This document shows positions 7,167 through 8,612 of a DNA stretch of 64,000 nt, piece by piece. The position numbers were made by a program, and so were the translations under genes. The stretch is from Terriglobales bacterium (GTDB taxonomy: Bacteria; Acidobacteriota; Terriglobia; Bryobacterales; Bryobacteraceae): positions 1 to 64,000 of the forward strand of contig JAIXQP010000006.1 in assembly GCA_027485675.1 (NCBI GenBank). Direction: 5' to 3'. The notes under the pieces are model-generated. The model was not told where the DNA came from and searched no databases. It saw only the letters and a list, made by a program, of their open reading frames with translations. The number at the start of each line of letters is the position of its first letter. The first letter of the stretch is position 1.

Positions 7167-7463
7167 CTATACCTTGACCGCAACCCACAGGCCCGGCTTT
7201 TCGGACCGGATGGAAACGCCTTTTCCCTTCCAGGCGTTCATCTCGGCCGGCACCCGGATCGCGCCGTCCTTATCCACGGCCACCCGCCGCGAGATCACCC
7301 GGACGGGCAAAGGCAGGTCCCGCTCCCCTTCCTTGGTGACCAGCCAGACACCGCCGCCACTGCGCGGCGCGACGATTACGCTGTACAGGCCCGCGGCGCC
7401 CATGGCCGCCGGCAGCGGCAGCCGGCCCTGAGAATCGATAGCGCTTTTCATTGGCTCTGGCAT
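7167..7463 (-). CDS. 98-residue protein with two AbrB/SpoVT-like half motifs
   Basis: Two stretches have the same signature about 50 residues apart: AIDSQGRLPLPAAM (about 8-21) and AVDKDGAIRVPAEM (about 62-75). Both fit the swapped-hairpin AbrB pattern (hxDxxGRhxhP), which dimerises to bind DNA; MraZ carries two such units in one chain. This protein is shorter than MraZ, and its second half (MNAWKGKGVSIRSE) also fits the AbrB strand order. It may be a small DNA-binding regulator. A start at ATG 7451 is an alternative. The divergent gene begins 11 bases away, so the protein could regulate both. Confidence 0.5.
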   Translation of the reverse strand: MPEPMKSAIDSQGRLPLPAAMGAAGLYSVIVAPRSGGGVWLVTKEGERDLPLPVRVISRRVAVDKDGAIRVPAEMNAWKGKGVSIRSEKPGLWVAVKV

Positions 7464-7477
7464 ATCTTCAAATTATG
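7463..7477. promoter_or_regulatory. Interlocked divergent promoters of the AbrB-like and UGA-containing genes
   Basis: Only 11 bases separate the two divergent start codons (7463 minus, 7475 plus). On the minus strand CATAAT (7472-7477) lies 8 bases before ATG 7463. On the plus strand TATCTT (7463-7468) lies 6 bases before ATG 7475. Each -10 box therefore reaches into the other gene's first codons, and both transcripts would be leaderless. This is inferred from hexamer fit only. Confidence 0.4.
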
Positions 7478-7831
7478 GCAACTTCCCCTATTGATTGGAG
7501 CTATCACCGCCCTGGTTGAAAAACCTGCGGCAAAACGCAGGAGTTTCTTGCGCAGGCCGGCCTGTCCACGGCCGTTCAAGTGGACGCTAAGAAGAAGGCG
7601 ATCGATCGAGCCGGAGCCATTGCTCTGGCGCGCGAAGCGGCAACCGTTTATGCCACCAAAGGCAAGAACGTGTTGCATCTCGACATGAAGACGAACCCGT
7701 CGGACGAAGAGATCGCGGCCCTGGTGGTGGGTCCCAGCGGGAACCTCCGCGCCCCGGCGCTTCGCCTGGGCAAGACCCTACTCATCGGGTTCGACGAGGC
7801 GACGTACGCTACGCTCCTAACTCCAAAATAG
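7475..7831 (+). CDS. Probable selenoprotein: thioredoxin-fold ArsC/Spx-like protein with in-frame UGA (Sec15)
   Basis: From ATG 7475 the frame reads MATSPIDWSYHRPG, then TGA at 7517-7519, then continues open as KTCGKTQEFLAQ to 7831. If the UGA is read as selenocysteine the protein has 118 residues and a UxxC pair (Sec15, Cys18) at the end of the first strand, just where ArsC, Spx and YffB proteins carry their redox Cys. The C-terminal part (NLRAPALRLGKTLLIGFDEATYATLL) matches the family's RPxLxxGxxxLVGFDEExY pattern. A perfect hairpin follows the UGA. A TGC or TGT to TGA nonsense mutation is the alternative; no other damage is visible in the frame. The selenium machinery is not in this window. 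Confidence 0.65.
7517..7556 (+). promoter_or_regulatory. Candidate bacterial SECIS element after the UGA
   Basis: Starting 4 bases after UGA 7517-7519, CCTGCG (7524-7529) pairs perfectly with CGCAGG at 7536-7541 around a GCAAAA loop. The same left arm can instead form a longer stem: 7524-7533 with 7548-7556, one bulged G, plus two A-T pairs inside. That places a 9-base loop beginning CG 16 bases after the UGA. The second fold fits the usual bacterial SECIS distance (about 16-37 bases) and the need for a G among the first two loop bases. Confidence 0.5.
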
Positions 7832-8612
7832 ACACCTCGGGCCGGCAACCGAACCGCACATGCTTGGGCGAACCTGCCCCGCGCGTGATGAACAGGTGCC
7901 GGCCCTCCCACTCGTAAAGTCCCGCCAGGTACCGCTTGTCCTCTACCGGAGCCCAGGAGGTCGGTACCGGCCACAGCCGGACCTGCCCGCCGTGTGTGTG
8001 GCCGCTCAGCATCAGATCCCAGCGCTGGCCGGCCAGGTGATCCTTGCCGTCCGGGTTGTGGCACAAAACAATCCGCGGCCCCGCGGACACTCCGGAGAAG
8101 CGGCCGAACTCACCGGAGAAGAGATCGCCCATCCCCACCAGTTCCACTCCCTCGGGCAGCTGAGCTGCTTCGTTGTGGAGCACCGTCACGCCCTCCTCCG
8201 CCAGGATTTGCCGCATTCCATAGGAATTGGAGCTACCACCGAAACGGCTGAGCCATCGGCCGCCATCATGATTCCCCATCACCGCGTACGCCGGAGCGCT
8301 CGTGGAAGCCCGGCGGAAGATGCGCCGCAGACCGGCTTCATCAAAGCCCTTCGTCGTCGAGACATAATCCCCCGTCAGGCAGATCAGATCCGGACGCCGC
8401 TCGAGGCCCATCTCCAAGGCCCGCAAGAGGGCGGACGCCGGCAACCCATCCGAGCAGTGCAGATCGGACAGATGGAGAATGCGGAGCGACGGAAGGCCCG
8501 GCCGGCGGATGGGCGTAACGGTGACCTCGTGCCACTCGGGCTCCACTTGCGTGGCCCACATCGCGGGACCCGCCGCAGCTCCCAACCCCAAAAAGACGCG
8601 TCGCGACAACAT
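7809..8612 (-). CDS. Calcineurin-like metallophosphoesterase with Tat-like signal
   Basis: The 267-residue protein starts MLSRRVFLGLGAAAG, a twin-arginine-type signal, and then shows all the metallophosphoesterase blocks in order: LSDLHC (49-53), GDYV (81-84), GNHDG (113-117), LCHNPD and SGHTHGG. These residues bind two metal ions. The arrangement is that of the YkuE family of exported phosphoesterases; the substrate (a UDP-sugar lipid, phospholipid or cyclic nucleotide) is not clear. A strong promoter ends 7 bases before the ATG. Its 3' end overlaps the UGA-containing gene tail-to-tail by 23 bases. Confidence 0.85.
   Translation of the reverse strand: MLSRRVFLGLGAAAGPAMWATQVEPEWHEVTVTPIRRPGLPSLRILHLSDLHCSDGLPASALLRALEMGLERRPDLICLTGDYVSTTKGFDEAGLRRIFRRASTSAPAYAVMGNHDGGRWLSRFGGSSNSYGMRQILAEEGVTVLHNEAAQLPEGVELVGMGDLFSGEFGRFSGVSAGPRIVLCHNPDGKDHLAGQRWDLMLSGHTHGGQVRLWPVPTSWAPVEDKRYLAGLYEWEGRHLFITRGAGSPKHVRFGCRPEVSILELGA

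Follow-up and report, generated by a model that had tools for sequence, protein, structure and literature searches.

We propose that positions 7475 to 7831 of the window (the whole 64,000-nucleotide stretch of Terriglobales bacterium DNA analysed here, contig JAIXQP010000006.1 of assembly GCA_027485675.1) almost certainly hold the gene of a small selenoprotein that has a thioredoxin fold and belongs to the ArsC/Spx superfamily; its UGA would be recoded by means of a SECIS hairpin at 7536-7552. The computation supports the conservation of the frame across the UGA, the position of the selenocysteine (Sec), the covariation of the SECIS, the presence of the decoding machinery, and the co-occurrence of the gene with selA. 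The original prediction, made from the letters of the DNA, was that of an ArsC/Spx-like selenoprotein with a UxxC pair; it gains support from the TGA found in 51/51 copies, the Sec machinery of the genome, the match to the family model NF041106, and the selection acting on the gene.

Gene frame and conservation of the UGA codon

The frame opens with ATG at 7475-7477, runs over 14 codons to TGA at 7517-7519, and continues through 103 open codons to TAG at 7829-7831, so that all coordinates of the original reading match the sequence. With TGA taken as Sec, the translation holds the active-site stretch U15-K-T-C18. An ordinary gene finder had been expected to start at GTG 7580 and thus to miss the active site, and the standard list of open reading frames (ORFs) agrees, the post-TGA portion of the frame beginning there at GTG 7580. 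The features discussed are the following.

7475..7831, + strand: predicted selenoprotein gene, NF041106 member; 118 aa, Sec as residue 15, stop TAG at 7829-7831
7517..7519, + strand: in-frame UGA, predicted selenocysteine (U15 of U15-x-x-C18); TGA in 51/51 copies, Sec machinery in the genome
7526..7528, + strand: Cys18 codon, putative resolving cysteine of the UxxC pair; Cys in 13/14 rows of a family alignment (A1) and in 31/33 sequences sharing the window's hairpin register
7536..7552, + strand: predicted bacterial SECIS hairpin; stem 7536-7542/7546-7552, loop GUU 7543-7545, 23 nt after the UGA
7580..7831, + strand: 83-aa ORF from GTG 7580, without the active site; the call expected from a non-recoding gene finder

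Homologues had been expected to carry either UGA or Cys at position 15. The contig profile scan returned 16 relatives, namely, 13 family members (with record titles of Acidobacteria, Bryobacterales and kin, Mariniblastus, KSB1, Proteobacteria, Deltaproteobacteria, and Actinomycetota), all 13 with TGA at residue 15, and three remote Acinetobacter relatives, all three with Cys at this position. Some match was found in 62 of 200 genomes of the class, and the 11 over the cut-off (the window's genome included) all have one internal TGA. For the phylum, 396 genomes were scanned, and 36 of them (the window's own included) match with E no higher than 1e-15, 28 being over the cut-off; exactly one internal TGA is present in 36/36, and its place was checked in 29 besides the window. 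The residue-checked set thus amounts to 51 copies: the window, 13 loci from the contig scan, 8 from the class scan, and 29 from the phylum scan, leaving out L050, L051, and L052 (repeats of the window, L035, and L031) and six phylum matches that came without a locus. TGA occupies the aligned residue in all 51, across several phyla. Further lesions, named in the original prediction as the mark of a decaying gene, did not appear, the over-cut-off matches of the class and phylum scans holding no extra internal stop.

Two close copies, L030 and L031, are 92 and 89% identical to the window gene (that of L031 being identical to the gene of the same-genus genome G069). dN/dS after the UGA is 0.067 against L030 and 0.106 against L031, values that place the codons following the UGA under purifying selection, while the 14 codons ahead of it hold one and three changes, respectively, too few for judging selection. 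In the window's genome, the search for a second copy gave a best match of only 35% identity (E 0.94). The interrupted frame, and nothing else, would fit a gene in decay, disrupted by a nonsense mutation at codon 15, or a UGA created by sequencing error. Against these stand the TGA at the same codon in 51/51 copies from records of several phyla, the downstream purifying selection, the Sec machinery in the genome, and the covarying hairpin after the TGA; we give them next to no probability, and reject both because of the conserved TGA.

Family membership

For profile searches, the Sec encoded by TGA was represented by Cys. The family model matched is NF041106.1, 'ArsC family (seleno)protein' (ArsC_rel_Se_1), with a score of 129.9 bits (E 5.4e-38, cut-off 85), over residues 6-111 and model positions 1-107 of 107, and the model is matched by 14/14 aligned members (alignment A1) at E up to 1e-5. 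A1 has 21 invariant columns, including D7, W8, Y10, R12, residue 15, T21-A26, K40, G89-R92, P94, G105, and F106. It is conceivable that the 83-aa frame from GTG 7580, which does exist, is the real protein and that the frame upstream is untranslated. However, the 35 residues preceding GTG 7580 hold 11 of these 21 columns (D7, W8, Y10, R12, and T21-A26 among them), and the NF041106 match reaches back to residue 6, so that we regard this reading as extremely improbable. Within the UxxC pair of the proposed selenoprotein, the second Cys is missing in L034 (Arg, UxxR; 2470) and in L086 (Ser, UxxS); Cys18 may therefore not be strictly required.

Another reading is that the protein is a true arsenate reductase, or a regulator of RNA polymerase like Spx, and belongs to no separate subfamily. 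The Spx/MgsR model TIGR01617 scores 24.9 bits with the window protein and is matched by 11/14 A1 members at E up to 1e-5; Pfam PF03960 (ArsC) scores 20.5 bits (E 0.00059); and when a profile of the 14 members was run against solved structures, the Spx chains 3gfk and 1z3e came first (E about 7e-8) among 10 different sequences that reached E 0.01 or better. Moreover, His stands at U-4 in 13/14 rows of A1, four residues ahead of the active position, which resembles the HX3C motif of ArsC. On the other side, the TIGR01617 score is far under its cut-off of 75.05; the Pfam score, under the gathering score of 24, indicates superfamily likeness only; and the arsenate reductase model TIGR00014 (cut-off 106.05) does not appear in the match list, which extends to E 10, in a search where HMMER filters discard most matches above about E 0.1. 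ArsC and Spx carry Arg at the position equivalent to U+4, where A1 has G, K, A, or V. We therefore consider this identity unlikely. Since NF041106 is over its cut-off and the ArsC and Spx models are under theirs, the protein is placed by these profiles in the subfamily NF041106 within the ArsC/Spx superfamily, and it falls short of the models that define ArsC and Spx themselves.

Compared with Spx/MgsR (TIGR01617, NF002459; 3gfk, 1z3e), the window protein shares the profile superfamily, an aligned redox pair, the LRxP stretch, and G-F/Y near the end, but has Sec in place of the first Cys, in addition to the low TIGR01617 score. Its likeness to ArsC of the glutaredoxin type (TIGR00014) lies in the superfamily, through the Pfam ArsC score, and the difference in the lack of a TIGR00014 match; glutaredoxin-type ArsC has a lone active Cys, unlike the UxxC of the window protein. 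With NF041106 itself, as tabulated in PMC13188914, the full-length match over the curated cut-off comes with Sec in UxxC at the same place, and the comparison turned up nothing that sets the window gene apart.

The predicted SECIS element

The conserved hairpin has the sequence CGCAGGA-GUU-UCUUGCG, and its consensus pattern, CGCARGAGTTYCTTGCG, occurs a single time genome-wide, at 7536-7552. The published rules for bacterial SECIS elements give (i) a loop of 3-9 nt, (ii) a G in the first two loop positions, (iii) a distance of 16-37 nt from the UGA, (iv) a stem of 4-16 bp, and (v) an energy at or below -7.5 kcal/mol (PMC13188914). By our own script, the loop GUU, the spacing of 23, and the stem of 7 bp all agree with these rules, while the energy is -7.1 kcal/mol for the 17 nt alone, just short of -7.5, and -8.2 within a 30-nt stretch. 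The bacterial SECIS expected after the UGA is thus found as far as loop, stem, and spacing are concerned, and is borderline in energy. An Rfam scan of the window gave no match at the gathering score.

For the window sequence alone, 164/2000 synonymous randomisations equal the 7536-7552 hairpin, which is therefore not striking by itself. The 51 copies yielded 46 distinct 60-mers following the UGA, which were scanned under the published rules for loop, G, and spacing, with a contiguous stem of at least 4 bp and stem-only energies. A hairpin at -4 kcal/mol or better is present in 46/46, compared with 2214/9200 synonymous randomisations; at -6, the counts are 42/46 and 1142/9200, and at -7.5, 19/46 and 483/9200. 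In 44/46, the distance from the UGA to the loop is 22 or 23 nt, with L103 at 18 and L104 at 26 (doubtful).

The register of the window is shared by 33 of the 46 sequences; the 13 with a shifted or different best hairpin (L038, L047, L089-L095, L098, L099, L103, and L104) were left out. In these 33, 229/231 cells of the 7536-7542/7546-7552 stem pair and three of its seven pairs have changed on both sides. The covariation score was reached by 0/500 shuffles and the number of further pair types by 26/500, bearing in mind that related sequences can exceed shuffles without any structure. When the stem is slid out of register, 33 to 71% of cells pair; RNAalifold selects exactly this stem; and over all 46 sequences, without re-registering, 263/322 cells pair. 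The SECIS lies within the stretch T21-A26, where the protein is most conserved, and the codon of Leu25 is CTT in 32/33 window-register sequences, which argues for a constraint at the nucleotide level.

The original prediction had placed the signal in hairpins formed by CCTGCG with CGCAGG. The letters are confirmed (CCTGCG at 7524-7529, CGCAGG at 7536 and at 7551); as conserved elements, the hairpins did not hold up, being complete in 10/46 distinct sequences for the first fold (7524-7529/7536-7541) and in only 2/46 for the second, with CGCAGG at 7551 (7551-7556). In favour of the first, it forms part of the most stable fold computed for the 60 nt in isolation (whole stretch, -24.1 kcal/mol), and in the 33 window-register sequences 83.8% of its cells are paired. 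None of its pairs shows a compensatory change in these 33, however, and it shares bases with the 7536-7552 hairpin, the two being mutually exclusive. The 14 nt from the UGA on would be inside the mRNA channel of the decoding ribosome, where the 5' arm of the first hairpin would presumably lie; once this part is removed, the most stable fold is the 7536-7552 hairpin (-8.2). In addition, the loop of the first hairpin begins 10 nt downstream of the UGA, short of the 16-37 nt range (PMC13188914). That Sec is inserted with either of these hairpins as the signal appears very improbable to us, and the conserved SECIS is, by comparison of the copies, the hairpin at 7536-7552, slightly downstream of its first placement.

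Two further groups of sequences deserve mention. Nine of the out-of-register sequences build another stem in this position, GCGTCCA/TGGACGC, the loop of which begins AGTT. This stem goes with L089-L102 (L090-L102 from one genus and L089 from another of the same family), where the protein residues are ASKLMDAR and similar; judging from the sequences, this lineage has kept the RNA structure and changed its sequence.

The other is a second ArsC/Spx-like group from the same class (L057-L075), in which 7/19 fetched loci have TGA (UTTCRKA) and 12/19 have Cys at the aligned position. In all seven TGA copies a hairpin follows, its loop lying 21 nt downstream of the UGA. The best NCBIfam model of this group is TIGR01617, with one of four scanned TGA copies over the cut-off and three under it. 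Two Cys copies, L068 (1516-1575) and L074 (a minus-strand copy), hold by eye a near-complete version of the Sec-copy hairpin with one or two unpaired positions, possibly a fossil SECIS after a Sec-to-Cys change.

Selenocysteine machinery and selA co-occurrence

The genome (6.59 Mb in 54 contigs, 97% complete) holds selA (454 bits), selB (380 bits), and selD (356 bits), all over the curated cut-offs, together with a tRNA-Sec at 70 bits (gathering 47) with anticodon TCA (ARAGORN); selA, selB, selC, and selD, the genes by which the prediction was to be judged, are thus all present. At E up to 1e-50, selA was found in 45/45 genomes with an NF041106 match (44 over the cut-off, the G548 match being partial) and in 19/38 genomes without a family match, a difference (Fisher p 1.4e-8) that ignores relatedness and is hence indicative only. 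The 38 comparison genomes are unmatched genomes of the class that were listed in the class and phylum scans, a non-random draw (138/200 genomes of the class are unmatched).

The selD match of the genome (L027:1531) itself contains a single in-frame TGA (context AGUASK), and the loop GGT of a hairpin behind it starts 20 nt after the TGA (stem-only energy -5.9). This selD is probably a second selenoprotein of the genome.

Gene neighbourhood

Upstream of the window gene lies a divergent 98-aa ORF (7167-7463, minus strand) with no Pfam match, and at its 3' side a convergent calcineurin-like phosphoesterase gene (7809-8612, minus strand). When ORFs of at least 90 aa around the window gene and 50 loci were compared all against all, these two neighbours were common only to L030 and L031. 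Shared neighbours were otherwise seen in close pairs and in the 13 loci L090-L102; an epimerase/DUF1731 gene lies on one of the two sides in four loci (three of the four identified by Pfam), and a similar upstream ORF in four loci, one of which (L076) is a D12 adenine methyltransferase. Among the window and the 50 loci, no general conserved neighbour was found beyond close relatives, and we therefore propose no operon-based function or substrate.

Discussion

We propose a model in which SelB, in complex with Sec-tRNA and the 7536-7552 hairpin, would outcompete termination, resulting in the insertion of Sec at the UGA at 7517. Because of the thioredoxin-fold kinship, Sec15 would probably attack as a selenolate, with Cys18 as the probable resolving thiol; the Se-S bond between them would then be re-reduced by cellular thiols, and the protein would reduce a disulfide, an oxyanion, or an oxidised thiol. 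The route of Sec insertion at 7517, through SelB and this hairpin, has good computational support; that insertion actually takes place, the redox chemistry, and the substrate are inferred, a Sec-based thiol oxidoreductase being the most likely function.

A curated model (NF041106) and publications on this family already exist, and the kind of system is well known. An ArsC-like selenoprotein was tabulated by 2006 (PMC1794560), and an 'Arsenate reductase-like protein, NF041106, UxxC' appears in a 2026 selenoproteome review, in a table the heading of which, as far as shown, is selenoproteins predicted with high confidence (PMC13188914). For this family, the review cites the Global Ocean Sampling study, which tabulates 'Arsenate reductase 2' (cd03032, UxxC), counting 42 selenoproteins (21 samples) and 238 homologues with Cys, and places it among families described earlier (PMC2398784). 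This citation is what links 'Arsenate reductase 2' to NF041106; compared by description only, the former comes from marine metagenome reads and has 238 Cys homologues, whereas in the window's family no Cys form was seen. A literature search by the NF041106 id found nothing beyond PMC13188914, a search joining selenocysteine, selenoprotein, and Solibacter found none, and the literature passages available to us name no substrate for the family.

It is tempting to see NF041106 as an obligate-selenium family, because TGA is found in 36/36 phylum matches, selA in all 45 other matched genomes, and no Cys form in the sampled Acidobacteriota, in contrast to the sister group of ArsC-like genes (L057-L075), where Sec and Cys replace each other. 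The 238 Cys homologues tabulated for 'Arsenate reductase 2' count against this (PMC2398784), and we hold the idea to be rather doubtful. If it were true, the reaction would need selenium chemistry, and losing the selenium machinery would mean losing the gene; RNA and protein constraints would also coincide, the SECIS sitting in T21-A26.

Altogether, the frame at 7475-7831 is very likely a working selenoprotein gene that standard gene finders would shorten, and its predicted SECIS is now given exactly. Its conserved residues, its Sec-only pattern, and the way it co-occurs with selA would make this family a sound target for biochemistry.
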